Shown: positions 3,587-20,559 of the stretch, piece by piece
Layout of the letters: each line of letters opens with the position of its first letter
Position numbering within the stretch: position 1 is the first letter of the stretch
Origin: a virus
Reading direction: 5' to 3' (one strand)
IMG/VR virus record: IMGVR_UViG_3300037635_006220
Span: 1 to 20,559 of that record
Length of the DNA stretch: 20,559 nucleotides
Notes under the pieces: generated by a model
What the model was told of the DNA's origin: nothing
The model's input: the letters and a program-made list of their open reading frames with translations, nothing else
Databases searched by the model: none
Program-made: the position numbers and the translations under genes

Positions 3587-4116
3587 TGTCCTATACCCCT
3601 ATAACCTTCCATCAGTAAAGCATCGATTCCCATTTCGCCCCCCTCGAAAGCCTCCCCTTTTGTCAGGGAAAACGAGGCAACAAACTGACCTTCTCTGTGA
3701 ACGTGGAACTGGACGTGAGTCCAGTCTTCGTACGTCTCATAGCTGCTGATATAGCAGCCTTGAGGGTTAGCTGATAACTGTGGAACATTAGCAGCAATCA
3801 CTGGCATTATGAATAGTGTTTTTTCAGTCTCAATATTTCTATAATGTTCTGGCACATTATCTATAATCTGATTAATAGTCACATTATAACCTTCCCTTAT
3901 TCTTGGCAAATCAAGCGCATCGTATTGGTTGCACCATAAAGTATTAATTGTATTTTTCAATTCTTTTTTTGTCCCTGTCCAATGGCTTAACTCTTTAATG
4001 GTGTTTTCGTTTTTGCAATTGCCAATTTCCCATAATGGCAAGGCGCACCATATAGGTTCGTGTGCTATGTTTGTTGTTCTGGTTATTTCAAAGCTTTTGT
4101 ATGTTTCGATATTCAT
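3583..4116 (-). CDS. Hypothetical 177-residue protein
   Basis: I do not recognise this soluble protein. It has an N-terminal strand pair (ETYKSFEITRTTNIAHEPIWCALPLWEIG), a helical middle (SHWTGTKKELKNTINTLWC), a further strand-helix region, and a C-terminal part with HVQFHVHREGQFVASFSLTK and an acidic/glycine loop (GEAFEGGEMGID). The ribosome-binding region (AAAAGGAAAATATAAAATG) is identical over 19 bases to that of the gene before it. Its stop overlaps the next start. It is the second gene of the operon. Confidence 0.6.
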   Translation of the reverse strand: MNIETYKSFEITRTTNIAHEPIWCALPLWEIGNCKNENTIKELSHWTGTKKELKNTINTLWCNQYDALDLPRIREGYNVTINQIIDNVPEHYRNIETEKTLFIMPVIAANVPQLSANPQGCYISSYETYEDWTHVQFHVHREGQFVASFSLTKGEAFEGGEMGIDALLMEGYRGIGQ

Positions 4117-4146
4117 TTTATATTTTCCTTTTTTAGTTAAAATTAA

Positions 4147-4365
4147 TTATGACCAGCAATCACTTGCATTATGACAGGCTGAAAAATTATGGTTATCACA
4201 ATATTTATCCCACACATCTTCCTGTATTGCCTTTTCTCTCAATAATTCATATCTATCATGTAATTCATAAGCCCGCTGATGGTTAATTATATAATTGCCA
4301 CGGCATATATGATTATTAATTGACTTTAAAGTTTTATCTAATTTTTGTATTGTTGATAATGCCAT
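4147..4365 (-). CDS. Hypothetical 72-residue protein, first gene of the operon
   Basis: This is a small helical protein (MALSTIQKLDKTLKSINNHI, then a YELHDRYELLREKAIQEDVW helix) ending in a cysteine/histidine-bearing tail (KYCDNHNFSACHNASDCWS) that could bind a metal ion. The ATG follows an AAGGA site and lies about 45 bases downstream of the expected start of transcription of the promoter at 4416-4444. No family recognised. As first gene of the leftward operon it would be the most strongly expressed. Confidence 0.6.
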   Translation of the reverse strand: MALSTIQKLDKTLKSINNHICRGNYIINHQRAYELHDRYELLREKAIQEDVWDKYCDNHNFSACHNASDCWS

Positions 4366-4415
4366 TTTATATTTTCCTTTTGTATTTGACGTTATTGTCG
4401 CGAATTTTCAACTAA

Positions 4416-4444
4416 ATTTTAGGTATATAGTGTATAGCAGTCAA
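4416..4444 (-). promoter_or_regulatory. Sigma-70-type promoter for the 4365-1644 operon
   Basis: On the minus strand TTGACT (4439-4444) and TAAAAT (4416-4421) are 17 bp apart, a near-consensus arrangement. The spacer reads GCTATACACTATATACC; its CTATACACTA is found again, as TAGTGTATAG on the plus strand, at the palindromes at 1532-1556. That suggests an operator within the promoter, perhaps for a Cro-like protein (inference). Confidence 0.7.
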
Positions 4445-5332
4445 TAAAATTATACAAAAATGTCGATTAATTTAAGAATGTGTTAAAAAACAGACGCTTA
4501 TGTAGATAAATTATTTTCGTTATTGCGCACTGCAACATGGTTTTCTGGCATAGTACTTGCTAGTAAAACATGTTTAGCAAACAATGTAGTTTGGTTGATT
4601 TTTTGACAGTAAAAGCAATTATTTCACCCGATAGTTTAATTTGATAAAAATCAAGCTATTGTTGGCTATAATCCAATTTATGAAAAATATCATTTTTCCA
4701 ATTATCGACCTTATTTTGACTATTAAAGGATTTTATCCCAAAAATCCTGCCAAATCACCTGAAAACCGCGCTATATAAGGCTTTCAGCCCGATTGCTCAT
4801 TTTTTGAACAGCAAAAATTCTGAAAAAGCCAAAAAACCACCTTTTTAGCTCATTTTTATAAAAGGGTGTTTTGCCCAGAAAAATTTTTGAGATCGAAACT
4901 GCCTGACAGATTTTTGATCTGCTTTGCTATTGGATTAAACTGAAACCAAAGACTCCCTGGTTGTTTATGAGTAGTGACAACATAATAAAAAACCACCACA
5001 CAAAAATAGAAAGCTCTTTTTAAAATTACTATGCTGTTTTCATGCAGTGCCTTGTGGGCGGCAATCCACCAACAATCTGGAGCAACCCGTCAAAAGCCAT
5101 ATAAGCCCGTTAGCAGCAATTCTCTGTTTAATCTGGATACATTGCCCTAGTTAACTTCAAAGAATTGTCATAGAGTCGCGTATAAGCAATCAGATACCCT
5201 TTCAAACAGTATTAAACAGTGGTTTTGCAGCAATTCCCTGAGTGACCAGAAATAATCTGCTGACAATAATCAGGAAATTATCAGGAAATTGCCACCAATA
5301 TTATTTGGACTATTCTGGAAATGTTCAGGCAT
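4445..5332. other. Long non-coding region between the two small-gene operons
   Basis: Almost 0.9 kb holds no frame with a credible start on either strand. It contains a bulged inverted repeat around AAACATGTTT (4557-4580), one copy of the dispersed repeat (4834-4891), two copies of gcagcaattc (near 5114 and 5228), and a tandem 11-bp repeat ATCAGGAAATT (5269-5279 and 5280-5290). Such a gap is unusual in compact phage DNA. An untranslated RNA, an origin or a decayed gene are all possible. Confidence 0.5.
4834..4891. repeat. Dispersed intergenic repeat R1, copy 1
   Basis: Positions 4834-4875 are identical over 42 bases to 8231-8272, and similarity continues to 4891 and 8289 through an A-tract/T-tract and GAG. 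Within the repeat, AAACCACCTTTT and AAAAGGGTGTTT form an imperfect stem with single-base bulges around a TAGCTCATTTTTAT loop. Both copies lie in the same orientation, upstream of a leftward transcription unit. Confidence 0.85.
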
Positions 5333-5356
5333 AAAAAAAGCAGCATTTCTGCTGCT
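5333..5356 (-). terminator. Intrinsic terminator after the second Cro-like gene
   Basis: AGCAGCA (5339-5345) pairs with TGCTGCT (5350-5356) around TTTC, followed on the minus strand by a seven-T run. It lies about 55 bases after the stop of the leftward Cro-like gene at 5413. Confidence 0.8.
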
Positions 5357-5378
5357 CTTTCTGGCGAGTGCTAATATT

Positions 5379-5431
5379 GAAAAAAGTAATCGGGGTATTT
5401 CAAATTGAAAATTTAGCTTTTGGTTTTCAAA
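5379..5431. repeat. Dispersed repeat R2, copy 1
   Basis: These 53 bases match 8775-8827 at 44 of 53 positions without gaps. On the minus strand each copy holds two sub-repeats: TTTGAAAACC and TTTGAAATACCCC here, TTTCAAAACC and TTTCAAATACCCC in the other copy. The same G/C difference appears in both sub-repeats. Copy 1 overlaps the last codons of the Cro-like gene. Confidence 0.7.
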
Positions 5432-5622
5432 TTATAGGTATTAAACTCATAGCCTTTTTTTACCATTGTACAGTTACCAGATTGATCAACCATTACATAC
5501 ATCTGCTGTCTAATCCAATAGGATACCTGAGATTGTGAACACCCCAGAAAAGCAGCAAGCGCCTTTTTGGGGATGTCGTTATCAGCTAGATGGACTGATA
5601 ATTTGGTTAGTCTATAGCTCAT
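5413..5622 (-). CDS. Cro-like DNA-binding regulator (second copy)
   Basis: This 69-residue protein reads like lambda Cro: an N-terminal helix (KLSVHLADNDI), a helix-turn-helix at about residues 18-38 (PKKALAAFLGCSQSQVSYWI), then the strand pair YVMVDQSGNCTMVKKGYEF and a short basic tail. In lambda Cro the matching stretch is A-K-D-L-G-V-Y-Q-S-A-I-N-K-A-I followed by I-N-A-D-G-S-V-Y. It is related to the 61-residue protein at 1644-1829, and like it is the last gene of an operon, overlaps the upstream stop as ATGA, and precedes a terminator. A perfect GGAGGTGA site sits 5 bases before the ATG inside the upstream gene's last codons, so it should be well translated. It probably acts as a dimeric repressor. 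Confidence 0.8.
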   Translation of the reverse strand: MSYRLTKLSVHLADNDIPKKALAAFLGCSQSQVSYWIRQQMYVMVDQSGNCTMVKKGYEFNTYNLKTKS

Positions 5623-5957
5623 AAATCACCTCCATTCATTTCTTTAGCCCAAATCAAAACGGGCATTATTTCAATCAAATTTTCGCAACTTAAAACAGTA
5701 TCTGGACTATCACCGTCAAGATCCCGTTTAACCAGATAAAATCTATTTTCTGCTGCATCTTCTCTGTTACATGGTGCTATCGCATCAATAAACAAAACAT
5801 ACTCATGGTCACCGCTGCGATTAATCACATAAGATGGGCATACATCATTTTTACTGGTATGATTTTCAAAACCATCTAATATTTCAGAGTCAATATCAGC
5901 AGTGTATACATTGGCGTTGAATAAATCGTTTATCATTTCTTGGTAAGAATATTTCAT
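5619..5957 (-). CDS. Hypothetical acidic protein upstream of Cro-like gene
   Basis: This is a 112-residue strongly acidic soluble protein (MKYSYQEMINDLFNANVYTA, then DIDSEILDGFENH; later LVKRDLDGDSPDT). A central strand (EYVLFIDAIAPCN) and a hydrophobic C-terminal helix (LIEIMPVLIWAKEM) suggest a small alpha/beta fold. No family recognised. Its start shares one base with the upstream stop (TAATG), and its stop overlaps the Cro-like start, so the three genes are translationally coupled. Small acidic phage proteins are often DNA mimics or inhibitors of host proteins, but nothing specific supports that here. Confidence 0.6.
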   Translation of the reverse strand: MKYSYQEMINDLFNANVYTADIDSEILDGFENHTSKNDVCPSYVINRSGDHEYVLFIDAIAPCNREDAAENRFYLVKRDLDGDSPDTVLSCENLIEIMPVLIWAKEMNGGDL

Positions 5958-6265
5958 TATCTGCCACCTTTTAGCTCATCATTTATTTCATCAGCCATAA
6001 TAAATAGGTAGTTTGAAATTGAGTCAATTGCATAATTCATCAGCACCTTGTTTTCAGCGGATTTTAAGGCGCAGCCCGTCAAACCCCTGCCATATATTTT
6101 TGCCCAATTAATGACCTCGCCATAACTATCCTCAATAGTGATAGTTTTTAGTGTGTGCGGTGCTACCGGCCTTGAAATGCTGTACTCGACAAGCATATTT
6201 TTGCTATCTGCCGTCACCTCTACCCATCCAGACAGGTATTTAAAAGTGTAATTTAATTTTTCCAT
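5957..6265 (-). CDS. Hypothetical 102-residue protein
   Basis: This is a soluble alpha/beta protein of unknown family. The first half is strand-rich (LNYTFKYLSGWVEVTADSKN and MLVEYSISRPV), the second helical with one cysteine (GLTGCALKSAENKVLMNYAI, then LFIMADEINDEL). An AAGGGG site precedes the ATG. It lies 12 bases after the 26-residue membrane peptide gene and directly upstream of the acidic protein gene. A terminator-like hairpin lies just upstream of it, so its expression may depend on read-through. Confidence 0.6.
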   Translation of the reverse strand: MEKLNYTFKYLSGWVEVTADSKNMLVEYSISRPVAPHTLKTITIEDSYGEVINWAKIYGRGLTGCALKSAENKVLMNYAIDSISNYLFIMADEINDELKGGR

Positions 6266-6277
6266 TATAACGCCCCT

Positions 6278-6358
6278 TTAGCCAAAATAATAAAAAGCTA
6301 ATCGGTCGATAAGCTGACCGATTAGCCATGTTAGTGTTAACAATATAATAATAGTCAT
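6278..6358 (-). CDS. 26-residue membrane peptide
   Basis: A very short frame encodes MTIIILLTLTWLIGQLIDRL followed by AFYYFG: one hydrophobic span (residues 2-17), a charged pair (D18, R19) and an aromatic end. An excellent GAGGTGG ribosome-binding site, formed by the stop of the upstream gene and the bases after it, sits 6 bases before the ATG. The stop is 12 bases before the next start. This packing is typical of a real gene. Single-span phage peptides of this size often modulate a host membrane protein; the target is unknown. A perfect 11-bp inverted repeat lies within the coding sequence. Confidence 0.6.
   Translation of the reverse strand: MTIIILLTLTWLIGQLIDRLAFYYFG
6284..6326 (-). terminator. 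Terminator-like hairpin inside an operon (possible attenuator)
   Basis: GCTAATCGGTC (6297-6307) and GACCGATTAGC (6316-6326) form a perfect 11-bp stem around an 8-base loop. On the minus strand TTTTTATTATTTT follows. It lies inside the 26-residue peptide gene, between the first gene of the operon and its last three genes. Translation of the peptide would disrupt the stem, so it could couple translation to read-through. Confidence 0.5.
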
Positions 6359-6367
6359 TATACCACC

Positions 6368-6679
6368 TCAAATATATGGCAGTCCGACAACATCCAGCTT
6401 TCTGGATAACGACTTACAAGCTCTGACGGAATGCTCATTTCTGGCATCGTAATATTCAATATCACCGTAAGATTCCATCACGCTAAACATAGCCCGCCAA
6501 AAACCCTGCTGTAATGTTCTATGTTTATTGGTGATTTTCTGTAAAAACAAATCGGCTATTTCCTGATCTGAACTTCTGTTCAGGTGATGAAAAATAACGT
6601 CCATTGCATTGTCTATTTCTTTTTCCCGTTGGTTATCCTGTTTTATCAGGTTAATCTGGTGCTTGGTTAATGTACTCAT
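6368..6679 (-). CDS. Hypothetical helical protein, first gene of second small-gene operon
   Basis: This is a 103-residue all-helical charged protein (HQINLIKQDNQREKEIDNAM, then EIADLFLQKI, FWRAMFSVMES and a basic C-terminal helix ACKSLSRKLDVVG). No family recognised. The AAGGAAATTATATT leader before its ATG resembles that of the DUF932 gene. It follows the DUF932 terminator by about 45 bases; no good promoter is visible between them, so it may depend partly on read-through. Confidence 0.6.
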   Translation of the reverse strand: MSTLTKHQINLIKQDNQREKEIDNAMDVIFHHLNRSSDQEIADLFLQKITNKHRTLQQGFWRAMFSVMESYGDIEYYDARNEHSVRACKSLSRKLDVVGLPYI

Positions 6680-6724
6680 AATATAATTTCCTTTTTAAAA
6701 AATGTTAACGGGTTGTTTCACAGC

Positions 6725-6771
6725 AAAAAAGCACTGTTGGATAGACACCTTAATGCCTATCTCAACAATGC
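6725..6771 (-). terminator. Intrinsic terminator after DUF932 gene
   Basis: On the minus strand GCATTGTTGAGATAG pairs with CTATCCAACAGTGC (one G-T/mismatch and one bulge) and is followed by six T. It starts 3 bases after the DUF932 stop codon. Confidence 0.8.
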
Positions 6772-6774
6772 TCT

Positions 6775-7875
6775 CTATGCGGCTTCAGCTTGCGCTATAC
6801 GCGACCATTGACGGTCAGACATAGTAAGTATCTTGCTACCGATGCTTTCAAGCTCAGTCGCTCTATCGTAGCCTATGGAGTCATCATTTGCCTGTTCTGT
6901 AACAGCATTGAGCATACCCCATTTGGAATAATTCTGATCTTTAATTAGGGATTCCAAAACACCATCTGTTTCTGACTGTCTGATGCCCACTTCTTTGGCT
7001 AATAACTCAACAGCGGGCACTGGGTTAACAACTTTTTCAGACTCATTGGCGAGGCGCAATTTGTCACCCATCTGTCGGCTGAAATCCTGAGAAGCAATTG
7101 CCTTCAGCATATCAGTGGTTTGACCGATTAAAGCCCGATCTTCTAATACTCTGGTTTCATCAGAAATAATTGAGAAGTCTACACCCTCGATTAATTTGCC
7201 ACCTAAATGAGAACGCTTGAAGTTGAAAGCATCAATGCCACCGAAATGACAACCGTTATCGCAAAAAGAGCGCCAGAAAAATGCCTGTAACGCAAGTGAC
7301 CCGTGACCAGTCTCACTATTGGATAACATAAATCCTGGACGAATTATATCGGGTGTACCTTTGGCAGTGATTCCAATTTGCTGTGCCAGACTGTCATCTG
7401 GGAAAAGTACCTTCAGATACATTTTTGAATCAGTAATATTTGATGACAGCAATTTGGTTTCAATATCACCATTGATGATACTGGGCAGGGTATGCTCCAA
7501 TACTGGGGCATGATCAAGGCGCTTATAGCTATTAGATAGAAATGCTCTTAATTCGCCATTCAGTGTACGCAGCATACGGGTGTTTGGCTCTTTTTTGAAC
7601 ATGTCGTTGACCAGACCGTATAAATGCTCCGGATAATCAGCCAGTATACGGAAATAGTGCTTGGTTGGAATTTGAAGACGGGCAGCAATTTGTTTATGGG
7701 CATTATCAGTGATCCCGAATTGCATAGTTTGATCAGGATTAGCGATTTGGATTTTCAAACCAGATTCAGTTTCAATAAATTCAGCTTTTTGTGTATCGGC
7801 TACAAAATCTTGTTTGGTTTTATTTTGGTCAATTACTGTAGTAAGTAGAGACTCTAAGTTCATTGCAGTTTGCAT
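6775..7875 (-). CDS. DUF932 family protein (phage/plasmid-like)
   Basis: The 366-residue protein fits the phage/plasmid DUF932 family. It has an N-terminal strand-rich part (GLKIQIANPDQTMQFGITD), then AHKQIAARLQIPTKHYFRIL, MLRTLNGELRAFLSNSYKRLDH, and the typical LMLSNSETGHGSL-like stretch (here FMLSNSETGHGSLALQAFFW) with CDNGCHF just after. The family is widespread on phages and plasmids and often abundantly expressed; its biochemical role is not settled, though a part in DNA metabolism is often suspected. The start at 7875 was chosen for its AAAGGAAATTATT leader; an upstream ATG at 7914 would add 13 residues. It is a single-gene transcription unit with its own promoter (7999-8027) and terminator. 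Confidence 0.85.
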   Translation of the reverse strand: MQTAMNLESLLTTVIDQNKTKQDFVADTQKAEFIETESGLKIQIANPDQTMQFGITDNAHKQIAARLQIPTKHYFRILADYPEHLYGLVNDMFKKEPNTRMLRTLNGELRAFLSNSYKRLDHAPVLEHTLPSIINGDIETKLLSSNITDSKMYLKVLFPDDSLAQQIGITAKGTPDIIRPGFMLSNSETGHGSLALQAFFWRSFCDNGCHFGGIDAFNFKRSHLGGKLIEGVDFSIISDETRVLEDRALIGQTTDMLKAIASQDFSRQMGDKLRLANESEKVVNPVPAVELLAKEVGIRQSETDGVLESLIKDQNYSKWGMLNAVTEQANDDSIGYDRATELESIGSKILTMSDRQWSRIAQAEAA

Positions 7876-7998
7876 AATAATTTCCTTTCCTTTTTTAGTT
7901 TTGGTTTGGGGCATTGCTGCCCCGTTATTAATTTAGTTATTTTACTGAGTAGGCATTTCTGCTTGCATAACTTTTAAGTTATTAATGTTTCAATTTCC

Positions 7999-8027
7999 TT
8001 TATACGCCTATACAAGCAATAAAGCAA
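7999..8027 (-). promoter_or_regulatory. Sigma-70-type promoter for the DUF932 gene
   Basis: On the minus strand TTGCTT (8022-8027) and TATAAA (7999-8004) are 17 bp apart. The spacer TATTGCTTGTATAGGCG carries a TGTATAG stretch, like that of the operon promoter at 4416-4444 (CTATACA on the other strand). It leaves a leader of about 115 bases before the ATG. Confidence 0.6.
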
Positions 8028-8157
8028 CACATAAATGTAAATTAATTAAACATAGTTGTTATTACTTAAACAGAATCATTATTTTATCAGGCTTTTTATT
8101 TACTAATGATATTATGATTTCTGAGCAGAAAATCTGATTAAATCAATATTTCTGTTT

Positions 8158-8183
8158 ATATAAATAATTCAATTTATTTATAT
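8158..8183. repeat. Perfect AT-only inverted repeat
   Basis: ATATAAATAA (8158-8167) and TTATTTATAT (8174-8183) are exact inverted arms around TTCAAT. It lies in the non-coding stretch 7915-8303, upstream of the DUF932 promoter. It is not followed by a T-run, so it is more likely a binding or melting site than a terminator. Apart from this element, the DUF932 promoter and repeat R1, nothing else was recognised in that stretch. Confidence 0.5.
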
Positions 8184-8230
8184 CTTTCGCTTTATTTATT
8201 AAATCCAATTAATTCCAGGATTTCATCGAG

Positions 8231-8289
8231 AAACCACCTTTTTAGCTCATTTTTATAAAAGGGTGTTTTGCCTAGCAAAATTTTTTGAG
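8231..8289. repeat. Dispersed intergenic repeat R1, copy 2
   Basis: Positions 8231-8272 are identical to 4834-4875. Like copy 1 it is followed by A- and T-tracts ending in GAG, and it carries the same bulged stem. It lies between the DUF932 promoter and the terminator of the 8362-8727 gene. Confidence 0.85.
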
Positions 8290-8303
8290 TCAAAGTCGAG
8301 CCG

Positions 8304-8329
8304 AAAAAAAGCGAGAACTTGTCTCGCTT
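8304..8329 (-). terminator. Intrinsic terminator after the 121-residue protein gene
   Basis: AAGCGAGA (8309-8316) pairs with TCTCGCTT (8322-8329) around ACTTG, followed on the minus strand by a T-run. It lies about 30 bases after the stop of the leftward gene. Confidence 0.8.
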
Positions 8330-8361
8330 GGTTTGGTTTGGAAATTAAATATTGATTTAGA

Positions 8362-8727
8362 TCAATGTTTATTATTGCGCTTTTTCCGTTCCTTTTGGTG
8401 TTCTGAATCATCAATCAAGGCATTGTCTCTGACGTACTCATCCACTGCCGCAGCAATTTCTTCATCGGTCAATGCGTATCGATTAGCATGGGATTCTGGA
8501 TAGCAGCTAGGGCAGTCTGGATCGCCACACTTAAGCATTTCCTGAAGTTCGTCAGGTAAGTTAGCCAGAATGCTCTGCCAACTATTGGGATCATCAAAAG
8601 CGCTCTCCTCAACCTCTTCCCGAAACATTACTGACAAATCGTTGTAAAGGATCTGCGCCTGTGAGTAGGTTAGCTCGATAAGTTTTGGTTCGGTTTCTCC
8701 AACATTTATCACTATGGTTTTTATCAT
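8362..8727 (-). CDS. Hypothetical acidic protein with a CxxxxCxxC knuckle
   Basis: This is a 121-residue soluble protein. A strand pair (IKTIVINVGETEPKLIELTY) is followed by acidic helices (MFREEVEESAFDD), a cysteine group CGDPDCPSC at about residues 67-75 that could hold a metal ion, an acidic helix (TDEEIAAAVDEYV), and a basic end (KERKKRNNKH). No family recognised. A TGGAG site precedes the ATG. It forms its own unit, with a terminator after it and repeat R2 just upstream. Confidence 0.6.
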   Translation of the reverse strand: MIKTIVINVGETEPKLIELTYSQAQILYNDLSVMFREEVEESAFDDPNSWQSILANLPDELQEMLKCGDPDCPSCYPESHANRYALTDEEIAAAVDEYVRDNALIDDSEHQKERKKRNNKH

Positions 8728-8774: not shown

Positions 8775-8827
8775 GAAAAAAGAAAACGGGGTATTTGAAA
8801 TCGAAATTTTGAATTTTGGTTTTGAAA
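8775..8827. repeat. Dispersed repeat R2, copy 2
   Basis: This copy matches 5379-5431 at 44 of 53 positions, ungapped. It starts 544 bases after the start of R1 copy 2; R2 copy 1 starts 545 bases after R1 copy 1. Here it lies between the primase-gene terminator and the start of the 121-residue protein gene, where a promoter for that gene would be expected. Confidence 0.7.
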
Positions 8828-8920: not shown

Positions 8921-11359
8921 TCATACCTTAAGCGCATAGTACCGCACCTCGCCTTTCTTTTCAAGCCCTGTCATATTAACGCCTATCGCGCCTTGGTCTT
9001 GCAAGTCGTTTAACACCTCATTACGATTTTTTATCGCCATACCTTTAAACGGAAAAATTTTATTCATATCAGTACGGCTCATACCGTTGTGCAGCGTTTC
9101 TCTAATCGCCTCAAGGCAGTCATTGCGTTGCTTGTGTTTCGGGTCTTGCGTTGAATACCTGTCTATCAATGCCGCCAATTTCTTGCCGTGATATTGCACG
9201 AACGATATGCACCACTGCGCCAGTTCGGTTGTAATAACTGGCTTATACGGATCTTCAAATGCCGCTAAACCCACGCAAAGTCTTCGGGCGTTTTCCAACC
9301 AACGACATGATACGTTCCTCATGAACTCGTTGTGTTGGTATTCGTCATCAAGATAGTCATCGAAATCAAAGAATAGATTACTTACTTCGGTGGAGATGTT
9401 AATTATTTTTGGGTCGGCTTTATTGGAATATGACCGACTCATATCCTCAAGATTACCCATGTTCCCGTATTTAAGCTCATCGCCCCTATCAACTACCGCC
9501 TCACAGTGCTTGATAATCCAGTCCGGTATTCCCAACTCGATCTTTCTGCGCTTGGTTATTCTGTCGTTTCTGGCATCCATCACGATAAGCCTATTAAGGA
9601 AGCCGCCCTCAACATGGCTCGATGTCAATGCATCCACGAACTGTTGTGGCGTGGACATACCAAGCATGGTTAAGCAAGGGTTATGGATAGGCTCAGCCCG
9701 TAAATCCTTCTTGGTGTTCTGACCATCAGGCATCGCGTAACTACGCCCTCCCCACACACCCCTGCTATCTGAATACACTTCCTTCATTGCTTCAAACGCC
9801 TCAGAGTCCCGACCATTGCCTTTTAAGCCTCTGGCTAATTTATCGCCAAACTCATCGATGACAGAGATCCTAACGGGGCTTTGTATCAGGTGCGCTCGTA
9901 GCGCAGCCTCTGATGTAAAGCTGCTGCCCCCAAACACATCTTTCAAGCTTTTCTGATTAGACTCAAGAAGCACTTTATGAATGCATTTTTTAATAAAATC
10001 TTTACCAGTACCAGTGCCTGCAATGAGGCAACCCATGATAGGCGAGAAGTTTCCTCGCTCATTCTCCATAAACACTCTTGATGCTGCGCCACAAGCAAGA
10101 GTGATTGCCCCTAGTAATGCCACCTGTCTCGATGACTTTGGCGCTGTGCTTTCCATCCACTCAGCCACTGACTGTACGTTCGTGCAAGGTATGGTTTTTA
10201 ACAACTCAGGCGTGGTGGATAACAAGTCCTTGCCATCCCATATGCGTAACTCGGCACGTTCTGGCACTTGGAAGCCCGCTTTAACGAATCTATCTAGCAC
10301 TGCTTTTGCTCTCTTACCTTCGCCTTCATCTTCAGCACACCAGATATCATTGAAGTCCATACCAACCAGTTCAGGCATTGCTATAAAGGTATCGGGGAAT
10401 TTGTCCCTACATTTTTCCGCTGCCTTAACGCCAGTTTCTGATGCGTCATTATCAGCACCAATAAACACGGTCTTGCCATCAACCAATTTTCTGGTGCTGT
10501 ACATCACTGGCAGCAAGTTGCCTGAGTCAAAACAAACCACTACCGCACAGTTCAGCGCCAGAGATATTGATGCGCCTGTGGCAAATCCCTCGCAGTATAC
10601 TATCGATGGACTCGACTCGACATCACCGATGATATGGAAGTTACCTTTCTTTACTGCGTGTTTCTTGAATAATTTAGTGCCACTAGAATTAATGCGTTGC
10701 CAGTTAACAGTCTCGCCTTTAACATTATAGATAGGCAGAACCATGTCAGCAGCATTCTCATCAAGTACACCTGCCACCCCCATCTTAAATACCTCGACCT
10801 GTGCAATAATGGCTGATATCTTTTTATCAGCAAAGTACTTATGCTTGGTTAACCTTGGCAACGCACTGATTTTAGATTGAACATATTTTGTGGCAGCGGC
10901 AGCAAGAATCTCTCGCTCTTTCTTCACCGCCTCTGCGTGTTCCTTCATACGAGCATTAATTTCTGCTATCTCGCTTTGTGATGGCTTGCCGCTTAAGAAA
11001 CCCGCCCAATTAGTGTGACCGCCTAGTCGCCAATCACCATATGAACCGAAGGCAGCATCACCGCTTCTCTTGAAGTAATACCATCCTGGTTTTGTACTAG
11101 GTTTGCACCCATCTACATCACAGCGCATAGGCTCGGTGTCTGTTTCGACTAACCCATCGGGCAGTTGAAATCCGGCATCGATTAATATACTGGTAAATTC
11201 ATTAATTAAATCACCAGTGGTCTTAACATGTGTGCTTGGCTCATCAAACACATGAAAGTATTCGGGTAGTTCTGTTGTTGGTTTTTTTACTTCTTCTTTC
11301 TGCTCTGTTATTGGTTTGTCATCATCGAGACTGACTTTTGCTTCTGCAAGCCAATTCAT
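8921..11359 (-). CDS. Toprim primase / superfamily helicase fusion
   Basis: An 812-residue replication protein. Residues about 75-115 form the N-terminal region common in such phage and plasmid primases (CDVDGCKPSTKPGWYYFKR, then YGDWRLGG). A coiled, charged linker (130-160) follows. The Toprim domain carries its glutamate in YCEGFATG (E257) and its acidic pair in IGADNDASETG (D302/D304 region). The C-terminal ATPase of DUF3987 type has Walker A GTGTGKD (about 448-454) and Walker B ISVIDEFGD (about 498-506). The last 60 residues look like a winged helix (SRTDMNKIFPFKGMAIKNRN). It should make primers and unwind DNA at the phage fork. An AAGGAG site lies 6 bases before the ATG. It is the second gene after the YdaS-like regulator, from the promoter at 11663-11691, and ends at a strong terminator. 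Confidence 0.9.
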   Translation of the reverse strand: MNWLAEAKVSLDDDKPITEQKEEVKKPTTELPEYFHVFDEPSTHVKTTGDLINEFTSILIDAGFQLPDGLVETDTEPMRCDVDGCKPSTKPGWYYFKRSGDAAFGSYGDWRLGGHTNWAGFLSGKPSQSEIAEINARMKEHAEAVKKEREILAAAATKYVQSKISALPRLTKHKYFADKKISAIIAQVEVFKMGVAGVLDENAADMVLPIYNVKGETVNWQRINSSGTKLFKKHAVKKGNFHIIGDVESSPSIVYCEGFATGASISLALNCAVVVCFDSGNLLPVMYSTRKLVDGKTVFIGADNDASETGVKAAEKCRDKFPDTFIAMPELVGMDFNDIWCAEDEGEGKRAKAVLDRFVKAGFQVPERAELRIWDGKDLLSTTPELLKTIPCTNVQSVAEWMESTAPKSSRQVALLGAITLACGAASRVFMENERGNFSPIMGCLIAGTGTGKDFIKKCIHKVLLESNQKSLKDVFGGSSFTSEAALRAHLIQSPVRISVIDEFGDKLARGLKGNGRDSEAFEAMKEVYSDSRGVWGGRSYAMPDGQNTKKDLRAEPIHNPCLTMLGMSTPQQFVDALTSSHVEGGFLNRLIVMDARNDRITKRRKIELGIPDWIIKHCEAVVDRGDELKYGNMGNLEDMSRSYSNKADPKIINISTEVSNLFFDFDDYLDDEYQHNEFMRNVSCRWLENARRLCVGLAAFEDPYKPVITTELAQWCISFVQYHGKKLAALIDRYSTQDPKHKQRNDCLEAIRETLHNGMSRTDMNKIFPFKGMAIKNRNEVLNDLQDQGAIGVNMTGLEKKGEVRYYALKV

Positions 11360-11395: not shown

Positions 11396-11620
11396 TTATT
11401 TACGTTCTTGTCGCTCATTCTCCAGTAATACGTCCCTCGCTTTGATTTTGCCACCAGATACTCGTTCGATCTGCAAGGCGTTGCTTGCGGGGATTGTGCC
11501 TTTTTGTGACCAATTATATACGTTTTGTGAGGAGGTGTTCATTGCCTTAGCAAGCTCTGCTTTGCCCCCAAAGTGGGTAATTGCGTTATTAATACAGCCT
11601 TGATTATCAGTTTGCGTCAT
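11396..11620 (-). CDS. YdaS/Cro-like helix-turn-helix protein
   Basis: A 74-residue protein with a helix-turn-helix at about residues 18-40 (GGKAELAKAMNTSSQNVYNW) and the hallmark tail of YdaS-like Cro proteins, IPASNALQIERVSGGKIKARDVL. These small proteins replace lambda Cro in many lambdoid elements and bind operators at the lysis-lysogeny switch; some are described as antitoxins of YdaT. No YdaT or CI gene is adjacent: the divergent neighbour is a replication-arm gene. An AAGGAAAG site lies just before the ATG. It is the first gene of the leftward primase operon and probably regulates the divergent promoters next to it. Confidence 0.85.
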   Translation of the reverse strand: MTQTDNQGCINNAITHFGGKAELAKAMNTSSQNVYNWSQKGTIPASNALQIERVSGGKIKARDVLLENERQERK

Positions 11621-11662
11621 TTTTCTTTCCTTATTAAATAAAAAATGTAGTTCGAGTGATGG

Positions 11663-11691
11663 ATACTAAACGCATTTTGATAAAATTACAA
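11663..11691 (-). promoter_or_regulatory. Leftward early promoter (YdaS-like gene and primase)
   Basis: On the minus strand TTGTAA (11686-11691) and TAGTAT (11663-11668) are exactly 17 bp apart. It lies 43 bases before the start codon of the YdaS-like gene. Its -35 box is 18 bp from the -35 box of the rightward promoter, so one bound repressor could control both. Confidence 0.65.
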
Positions 11692-11709
11692 TATAAACTA
11701 AATATTTTC

Positions 11710-11738
11710 TTTACAAGACATAAAATTAGGCGTACTAT
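11710..11738 (+). promoter_or_regulatory. Rightward early promoter (recombination/replication operon)
   Basis: TTTACA (11710-11715) and TACTAT (11733-11738) are 17 bp apart. A small TCCC-TTCG-GGGA hairpin follows in the 5' leader (around 11745-11757), just before the first gene's AAGGAAA ribosome-binding site. The -10 box lies about 45 bases before the ATG. Confidence 0.65.
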
Positions 11739-11782
11739 CAAATCTCCCTTCGGGGACTACAATTTAATCAAAAGGAAACGCT

Positions 11783-18359: not shown

Positions 18360-18745
18360 TATTTTTTATCCTTATTTCTGCCACAATGGCTGCAATCATG
18401 AGGCTCTATAAAGATTTCACAAATTTTATCCGCTATCTTATAGCGCAACATGTCTGGCGTTATTTTTGTATCGCACCTGATTATCTGTCTCAACCTGTGA
18501 GAAAGCGTCACATCGTGCAGCCTCATACCCCGTTTTATGTCAGGCAACTGCCAAAAAATTAGCGTTGCCCAAAAAACATTCCATATCACATCGAGCAGCC
18601 AACCAATTATGCCGATGGGTAAAAATAAATAAACAAAAGGTTTGGGATAACCTTTTACTCTCATAATTATAATAAATAGTACCCACGTTAGCAAAAATAT
18701 ACACACACCCGATGTTATGTATAGCATTATATAATTATCTATCAT
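18359..18745 (-). CDS. Late membrane protein with C-terminal CxxC
   Basis: This 128-residue protein has two membrane spans, at about 6-27 (MLYITSGVCIFLLTWVLFIIIM) and 36-63 (FVYLFLPIGIIGWLLDVIWN and VFWATLIFW). A cytoplasmic-looking tail follows (TLSHRLRQIIRCDTKITPDM) and the protein ends DCSHCGRNKDKK. Phage membrane proteins with a T-x-S-x-R box after the last span are common near the lysis genes, function unknown. The frame is open upstream, but the ATG at 18745 overlaps the tail-protein stop as ATGA, which decides the start. Confidence 0.65.
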   Translation of the reverse strand: MIDNYIMLYITSGVCIFLLTWVLFIIIMRVKGYPKPFVYLFLPIGIIGWLLDVIWNVFWATLIFWQLPDIKRGMRLHDVTLSHRLRQIIRCDTKITPDMLRYKIADKICEIFIEPHDCSHCGRNKDKK

Positions 18746-20559
18746 GCAATCTCGTCCCCACGCACATCGCCCAATGATGTTGTTGCTACCCAACTATGCC
18801 CGTCCCTGTCAATTGCGTCACCACCATTACCGCCTGATGTTGATAGACTAAATTCAGAAAAACCATCGTTTCCATCATTACCCAATCCACCGCCTGCTCC
18901 GCCTCTTGCAATATCATCCCACCAAGATGTTGTTCGCACTCCACCGCCACCACCTCCCGATGTTTTTGTGCCGTCCTCAGAATCTGAAAGCAACGTTCCG
19001 CTTATAGCCGCCCAAGTGATGTTTTTTAATCCTGCTGAATTTCCTGCTCCACCGCCACCGCCTGCCCATCCACTCAATGACGTAGTTATGCCACCACCAC
19101 CGCCACCGCCACCACCACCGATAACACCGCTATTGGTTAATAAAACGTCATGCGCCAATTTTAACGCAAGACCGCCATCACCACCTGCCACAGCGCTAGA
19201 TCCACCATCACCACCCTTGCCGACAATGAAAGCGCCCGATTGAATGATGATAGTCACTGTTACGCCCGTTTTATCTGTCCATGTGCCTGTATCACAAGCC
19301 GCTGATAATGAGGTTGAGCCTATTACAACATTTGGTTCGACAATAAATTTTGCCTTATCGTTATCAGCTAATGTATATGTTTCATCCCAAAGTGTCCGTA
19401 GGTTTAAATTTTGGCAACTAACGGATATGCGTTTAGGCTTGTATCCCTCTGCCTCACTTGCCTCGTCATCTGTTAATTCTCCTCCGTAGGTGTACTCCAG
19501 CGCAGTATATTTATAGGTATCCCTATGCTCCTTGGCGCTGATGATTTGATACACTACATCCAATGGCATACCGGAGAAATCAACTACATCGCGATGGTTT
19601 ATGGACTTGCTTTGACCAACCCACACGCCCTCGCTACCCCCGTCCTTTGCGTCAAGTGAAAAGTCGATGACACGGGGTTGGTTAGAGAATCGTCTTCCCA
19701 ATGTTGTGGCGATCTGGAGAGCGCCAACTTTTGACGTATTAGACAACCAACGAGAATTGATGACTCTGATTTGATTTGATCCATATTTGGCAATTGAATC
19801 CGCATCAACACGCGCAACTGACTGACGGTAGTTGCCCACATCGTCCAATTTTAACGTGGGATTATACTGCCCAAAATTAACAAAAACTGTGGATACTCTC
19901 ATTTGTGGGTTGTCTTTAATTGAAACCGAACCCTTGATTAAATGCTCGTCCATGTTTAGCGTATTTGCTGAGTCAGGCGGTGGTCGTAATGCTGTCAATT
20001 GTATTTTTGCAGTTACCTCGTCCCACCAAAGGTAATGTGCCTTATTTTCGGATAATTCAATTAGCAGTTTTTTTACATCGTAGGGTTTTACAATTATCCC
20101 AGATAAGTTTCCTGTTAAGAAATTTTCGATCTCAGATGCCCACGAAGCAACAGAAATAAATGTTGGATCTATATTTGTATAATTTACCAATAAATCATAA
20201 ACGATCTTATCAACTGTTTCCCGTTCATAAACAAGACACTCGTGTACCGTCACACCTGATGAATGAGCCGCCTGCGTAGTGTTGTATGCTCCTCGTTCTA
20301 TTATGTCGAATGTATCATTGGTTCTCTCATATTTTATGACCTCAGAATCAAGCAAAACCCATCCATCTGCTCCGTATTCTGCGCCCTCGCCACTACCAAC
20401 ATCAAAGCTGCTGTTAGCGCCTGATGTGATTGAGCCGTCGGTCAATCCCTTGCGAACAGATGGCGCTTGCGCTTTTTTGCTACCCACCAATTTCAACGGA
20501 TCTTTACCGACAACAGACGCGCTGCCTTTTGACACATCTATTCTATCAATTACATAATG
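18742..20559 (-). CDS. Tail-tip / receptor-binding protein, C-terminal part (right edge)
   Basis: An open frame of 606 codons enters from the right edge; the N-terminus is outside (a GTG at 20535 is probably internal). Window residues below are counted from that codon. Residues 50-350 resemble siphophage tail-tip (hub) proteins: GWVLLDSEVIKYERTNDTFD, then IERGAYNTTQAAHSSGVTVH and further hub-like strands. From about 436 to 575 the protein is a glycine-rich domain with runs of up to ten glycines (VIGGGGGGGGGGITT, GWAGGGGGAGNS, TSGGGGGGVRTTSW). Such domains form polyglycine-II bundles in T-even gp38 adhesins and end many gpJ-like proteins; they contact the host receptor. The short end HSWVATTSLGDVRGDEIA follows. 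Its stop overlaps the next gene. Confidence 0.8.
   Translation of the reverse strand, partial: HYVIDRIDVSKGSASVVGKDPLKLVGSKKAQAPSVRKGLTDGSITSGANSSFDVGSGEGAEYGADGWVLLDSEVIKYERTNDTFDIIERGAYNTTQAAHSSGVTVHECLVYERETVDKIVYDLLVNYTNIDPTFISVASWASEIENFLTGNLSGIIVKPYDVKKLLIELSENKAHYLWWDEVTAKIQLTALRPPPDSANTLNMDEHLIKGSVSIKDNPQMRVSTVFVNFGQYNPTLKLDDVGNYRQSVARVDADSIAKYGSNQIRVINSRWLSNTSKVGALQIATTLGRRFSNQPRVIDFSLDAKDGGSEGVWVGQSKSINHRDVVDFSGMPLDVVYQIISAKEHRDTYKYTALEYTYGGELTDDEASEAEGYKPKRISVSCQNLNLRTLWDETYTLADNDKAKFIVEPNVVIGSTSLSAACDTGTWTDKTGVTVTIIIQSGAFIVGKGGDGGSSAVAGGDGGLALKLAHDVLLTNSGVIGGGGGGGGGGITTSLSGWAGGGGGAGNSAGLKNITWAAISGTLLSDSEDGTKTSGGGGGGVRTTSWWDDIARGGAGGGLGNDGNDGFSEFSLSTSGGNGGDAIDRDGHSWVATTSLGDVRGDEIA

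Follow-up and report, generated by a model that had tools for sequence, protein, structure and literature searches.

A 42-bp intergenic repeat present twice, 3.4 kb apart, among the leftward genes of a phage: a candidate duplicated protein-binding site

The window (the whole stretch of virus DNA that was analysed, an entire virus record of 20559 bases) contains two identical 42-bp copies of a non-coding element, R1, in the same orientation and 3397 bases apart. The repeat is real and, as far as the collections show, apparently private to this uncultured phage. It is tentatively read as a DNA site for a binding protein, duplicated so that one copy marks the upstream edge of each of two leftward units, which would start at the DUF932-like gene (7875) and at the gene beginning at 4365.

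Identity and extent of the repeat

The two cores (Table 1) are identical at 42/42 positions, as the earlier note had reported, and by blastn the match extends to 4888/8285 with 53/55 bases identical (E ~1e-19). This extension takes in the A/T tract that had been described beside the element, and it is present in both flanks. Beyond 4888/8285 a one-base shift is followed by a few letters in common (GAG.TC.AA, by eye), which bears out the looser similarity noted as far as 4891 and 8289. The ends of R1 are abrupt and its flanks are unrelated to each other; the surroundings, which had been called diverged, are not diverged copies of one another, since the 490 bases rightward of copy 1 and of copy 2 align no better than shuffles. 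Dinucleotide shuffling of the window, done 200 times, gave no exact repeat longer than 18 bases, versus 42 for R1, which is the strongest repeat of the window and is followed by a second family, D4.

A second record of the same phage (L006, 18626 bases) is identical to the window over 15932 bases and holds both R1 copies, so an artefact of one assembly is unlikely. It stops at window position 4628 and runs 2694 bases past the right end of the window, where a glycine-rich tail protein gene (18742-20559) is cut; the latter is a 954-aa ORF in L006. A third record (L009), 99.5% identical to the window over 5810 bases, stops short of R1.

Table 1. Coordinates of R1, D4 and neighbouring features in the window
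Feature	Position	Strand	Basis or remark
72-aa gene, first leftward of R1 copy 1	4147..4365	-	ORF list and family searches
Strong sigma-70-like promoter TTGACT-17-TAAAAT for the 4365 gene	4416..4444	-	390 bp downstream of R1 copy 1
R1 copy 1 core, 42 bp	4834..4875	-	oriented with the leftward genes
Inverted repeat in R1 copy 1, CACCTTTTTA ... TAAAAGGGTG	4838..4868	.	+ strand fold; arm spacing read from sequence
R1 copy 1 flank, A/T tract AAAAATTTTT	4876..4888	-	11/13 identical to copy 2
Predicted intrinsic terminator after the HTH gene	5339..5353	-	450 bp before R1 copy 1 going leftward
D4 copy 1	5379..5431	.	44/53 identical to 8775-8827; overlaps 3' end of the HTH gene
Small helix-turn-helix (HTH) gene, last of the leftward block between the R1 copies	5413..5622	-	weak HTH hits, below curated cut-off
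DUF932-like gene (PHROG 1362), first leftward of R1 copy 2	6775..7875	-	PHROG E 6e-40
R1 copy 2 core, 42 bp	8231..8272	-	identical to copy 1
Identical inverted repeat in R1 copy 2	8235..8265	.	+ strand fold
R1 copy 2 flank with A/T tract	8273..8285	-	sequence comparison with copy 1
Predicted intrinsic terminator of the 8362-8727 gene, just before R1 copy 2 going leftward	8309..8329	-	
121-aa gene, family unknown, between D4 copy 2 and R1 copy 2	8362..8727	-	ORF list and family searches
D4 copy 2	8775..8827	.	between primase terminator and gene 8362-8727

Gene context

In the ORF list, every gene accepted as real between 138 and 11620 is leftward. Copy 1 lies inside a 1047-base non-coding gap (4366-5412) and copy 2 inside the non-coding gap 7876-8361; each gap has leftward genes on both sides, and both are among the five longest non-coding gaps of the window. 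The placement given in the earlier note, non-coding, in one orientation and ahead of leftward genes, is thus upheld by the ORF list and the gap positions. The distance to the next gene start is 468 bases for copy 1 (start at 4365) and 355 bases for copy 2, for which the likely start at 7875 was picked by its Shine-Dalgarno as read from the sequence. The DUF932-like gene that begins there also matches Pfam DUF932, just below the cut-off.

Three loci, 5413-5622, 1644-1829 and 11396-11620, encode small proteins predicted to be HTH/Cro-like, the first two called on weak hits; a comparison of these two, to see whether they might be paralogues, gave no alignment. The window also encodes a Sak4-like annealing protein and a Cas4-like exonuclease.

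Further repeats were observed in the non-coding DNA. The 1047-base gap contains several short repeats, among them AGCAGCAATTCTCTG at 5112 with a near copy at 5226, and no Rfam family was found there at gathering score. The gap 615-1643, AT-rich, non-coding and about 1 kb long, holds palindromes (1238-1268) and repeats at 862 and 880. Positions 4114-4132 are identical to 4363-4381 and carry a Shine-Dalgarno and start codon, AAAAGGAAAATATAAAATG (- strand), ahead of two leftward genes, in the manner of the start-associated sequences (SAS) of other phages; looser versions of this stretch occur at 6678 and 7877.

Inverted repeat, RNA folding and transcription signals

R1 contains an inverted repeat whose arms can be read as CACCYTTTTA, about 21 bp apart, which is about two helix turns and would place them on one helix face. 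Folded as RNA, the + strand forms a stem of 10 pairs closed by a loop of 11 bases (-9.9 kcal/mol, z -2.25), whereas the - strand, which the leftward genes would transcribe, contains an internal mismatch and its fold is no more stable than those of shuffled sequences (-5.7, z -0.01). Of the bulged stem proposed in the earlier note, the stem is therefore present on the + strand without the bulge, and the mismatch belongs to the - strand; with a z of -0.01 on that strand, R1 is unconvincing as an RNA element in leftward transcripts. No Rfam family matches R1 at gathering score, and sub-threshold Rfam sRNA hits between 5251 and 5435 (E 0.16-0.56) were set aside since they overlap an ordinary terminator.

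A terminator was sought as a stable hairpin that contains G+C and leads into a run with at least 5 T in 8, and none was predicted at R1, where the + strand stem is followed by TTTTGCC. It is very unlikely that R1 acts as a weak hairpin terminator, on rightward (antisense) transcripts or in both directions. The 10-pair + strand stem leading into TTTTG speaks for such a role, as do two viral contigs with a similar arm-loop arrangement (L016, L030) that resemble ordinary A-tract/T-tract terminators, these contigs having been pre-selected by the arm pattern. Against it are the run of only four T, the loop of 11, the leftward strand's mismatch and shuffle-like fold, and the position of R1 with no rightward gene near it. 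An identical loop, moreover, would not be needed by a terminator.

Sigma-70 promoters were scored with an approximate frequency matrix and sought as -35 and -10 hexamers spaced 16-18 bp in both copies. Only TATAAA is common to the copies; the -35 hexamers differ and lie outside the core, the spacings are 16 and 15, and the best scores are modest (98.5th and 99.5th percentile of the - strand). Given the weak score and a -35 part not common to the copies, a sigma-70 promoter was rejected. We consider it unlikely, too, that R1 is a leftward phage-specific promoter outside the sigma-70 consensus, giving long 5' leaders, as the intergenic repeats of halovirus HF2 might suggest. Such a promoter would account for the common orientation ahead of leftward units and for the shared TATAAA with its upstream A/T tract on the - strand, and the 58-bp and 29-bp repeats of HF2 have been shown to act as promoters (PMC8707807); yet, besides the modest scores and the differing -35 part, a much stronger predicted promoter lies downstream of copy 1 (Table 1).

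R1 was also considered as a coding 3' end, the leftward ORFs 4856-4999 and 8253-8414 both ending in it with similar last residues (...KNF..QNTLL). This was rejected on three grounds: one ORF crosses a terminator, each of the two substitutions alters the encoded residue, and the identity continues for 22 bases past the stop.

Searches for further copies

No third R1 copy was found in the 20559-base window or, within 3 mismatches, in the 18626-base same-phage record; the next best matches in the window are to the other strand of R1 itself (27 and 26/42), followed by 25/42. In the viral contigs the exact R1 32-mer occurs only in the record of the same phage, which carries both copies. One half of R1, CCACCTTTTTAGCTCATT, gave 2 stretches in the viral contigs, one from the same phage and one, an 18-mer match in viral contig L039, in otherwise unrelated DNA; the other half, TATAAAAGGGTGTTTTGC, was found only in the same phage. 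The arm pattern occurs in 19 stretches of the viral contigs, with two separate sites only in the same phage. Neither a 26-mer nor a 22-mer of R1 was found in the genome contigs, and a blastn search of 71 bases against phages and plasmids returned nothing beyond short, weak matches (best E 0.01 and 0.5).

Relatives recognised by protein (primase, DUF932-like, Cas4-like and tail proteins) share about 22-51% identity among the matches listed, and infect Alteromonas, Pseudoalteromonas and Idiomarinaceae among others (marine bacteria). Eight distant named phages contain neither R1 nor a long intergenic repeat, their self-matches being two record ends (L032) and repeats inside genes (L036, L038), and the helicase relatives L011 and L012 (34%) have neither R1 nor a self-repeat; the only close record is that of the same phage. 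The search suggested in the earlier note, here covering these relatives, the window and the 18626-base record, thus yielded no copy of the 42 bp beyond the two, and since no relative carries R1, selection and recent copying, the two causes offered there for its identity, are indistinguishable.

A mobile miniature element, another of the proposed readings, is unsupported because no further copy was found in the phage or in any collection scanned. MITE-like elements occur in multiple copies; R1 has two in the phage and none elsewhere in the scanned collections, and no terminal inverted repeats or target duplication were seen by eye. Loss of the intervening block by recombination between the copies is physically possible, as a Sak4-like annealing protein and a Cas4-like exonuclease are encoded, and would delete 3397 bases that carry the DUF932-like gene, the HTH gene and three further small genes without an assigned function. 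No single-repeat form with joined flanks was found in the viral contigs.

A second repeat family at the same spacing

D4, the second-best repeat of the window (44/53 identical, E ~9e-9), is offset by 3396 bases, equal to the 3397 of R1 within one base, and the distance from D4 to R1, start to start, is 545 and 544 bp. On the + strand the D4 copies contain TTTCAAATTGAAA, a near-palindrome, and TTTGAAATCGAAA; a sequence similar to the latter, TTTGAGATCGAAA, also follows R1 copy 1 at 4886. A pattern search for D4 found only the same phage. The probability that D4 falls within one base of 3397 by chance was 0.0007 for random non-coding placement and 0.0024 within the same gaps, both calculated post hoc; D4 copy 1, moreover, reaches into the 3' end of the HTH gene.

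This fixed spacing is the oddest feature of the locus. When the approximately 490 bases between D4 and R1 at the two places were compared, the global alignment was matched by 173/300 shuffles and the local alignment by 89/300. A tandem duplication of the whole 3.4-kb unit was rejected on this ground; an old one fits badly because traces between the repeats would be expected. That the spacing itself is functional is only a guess. D4, about 490 bp and R1 could form a two-part cis module present twice, with protein-bound sites at a fixed distance and any cargo between them, for instance as a looping or replication device, although we think this quite unlikely. Should relatives show equal R1-D4 spacing as well, the pair would be an uncommon example of two sites whose distance is conserved without conserved intervening sequence.

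D4 bears as well on whether R1 has any function. A recent, functionless short duplication of about 55-65 bp, produced by template switching or gene conversion, or the leftover boundary of a gene-block exchange, would explain the abrupt ends and unrelated flanks, the presence of two copies only, and the absence of R1 from any relative or collection beyond the same phage. Such an origin, with the phage-specific promoter one of the two main rivals to the binding site, is nevertheless judged unlikely: both copies are intergenic and in one orientation (yet selection also purges insertions in genes), and one short copying event would not yield the same offset in the older-looking D4.

Interpretation of R1 as a possible protein-binding site

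Among the three readings of the earlier note, a regulatory site fits best, the copies being intergenic, in the same orientation and past the leftward terminators 8329-8309 and 5353-5339; the mobile and recombination readings fit less well. A regulatory site is supported by the inverted-repeat arms about two helix turns apart, and a protein site is preferred over an RNA stem because the identity spans the loop of the inverted repeat, which is needless for an RNA stem alone. The small HTH/Cro-like proteins encoded in the window lend it further support. The repeat, its non-coding place, its orientation, the arms and the apparent restriction to one phage are observed in the sequence, whereas binding, the binder and any effect on transcription are inferred.

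A protein bound to R1 would contact both CACCYTTTTA arms from a single helix face and, together with the A/T tract, would coordinate or insulate the two leftward units; the binder would more likely be a small phage regulator than a host protein. Against an operator of the classical kind, the distances of 355 and 468 bp to the start codons and, for copy 1, 390 bp to the best predicted promoter are far, and against a binding site in general is the lack of a third copy; the cro-like divergent region 11621-11782 has none either. As a control site, R1 would mark leftward transcription units in a lineage for which the collections searched contain no close relative, and any of the three small predicted DNA-binding proteins in the window might bind it.

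Comparison with known systems

In phage P4, two cis sites, ori and crr, lie a few kilobases apart beside the primase-helicase gene, each being an array of short iterons. The R1 pair, likewise a few kilobases apart beside a primase-helicase gene, may be analogous, and R1 could then be a pair of cis replication sites for that enzyme. One gene separates copy 2 from the primase gene (8921-11359), the DNA on the left side of copy 2 is rich in AT (27% GC, 7751-8250) and copy 1 lies in a 1-kb non-coding gap. Neither R1 gap, however, contains an iteron array of the P4 type, R1 has no known binding motif, and GC skew tracks gene direction; this role seems scarcely probable.

The stoperators of Cluster A mycobacteriophages are repressor-bound sites spread across the phage DNA (PMC9283540), 13 bp in length (PMC3203893). 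They are short and numerous, unlike R1, which is long and has two copies in the 20559-base window and the 18626-base record. The start-associated sequences of Cluster K mycobacteriophages, about half of which are accompanied by inverted repeats (ESAS, 17-bp), are closer in form: like R1 they are repeated and intergenic, almost all of them share an orientation, and some include an inverted repeat (PMC3203893). SAS lie directly at the start codons of many genes, whereas the two R1 copies are 355-468 bp away.

Halovirus HF2 has nine intergenic repeats, of a 58-bp class I and a 29-bp class II, with measured promoter activity (PMC8707807). As there, two AT-rich repeat classes (here R1, 55 bp, and D4, 53 bp) are found in one virus group, intergenic and ahead of gene blocks. 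HF2 differs in its archaeal host, its nine repeats and its measured promoters, whereas the present classes have two copies each and are known from sequence alone. R1 thus departs from each named family in every defining property for which a result was obtained, and in kind it joins intergenic repeats already known to be restricted to a single virus group.
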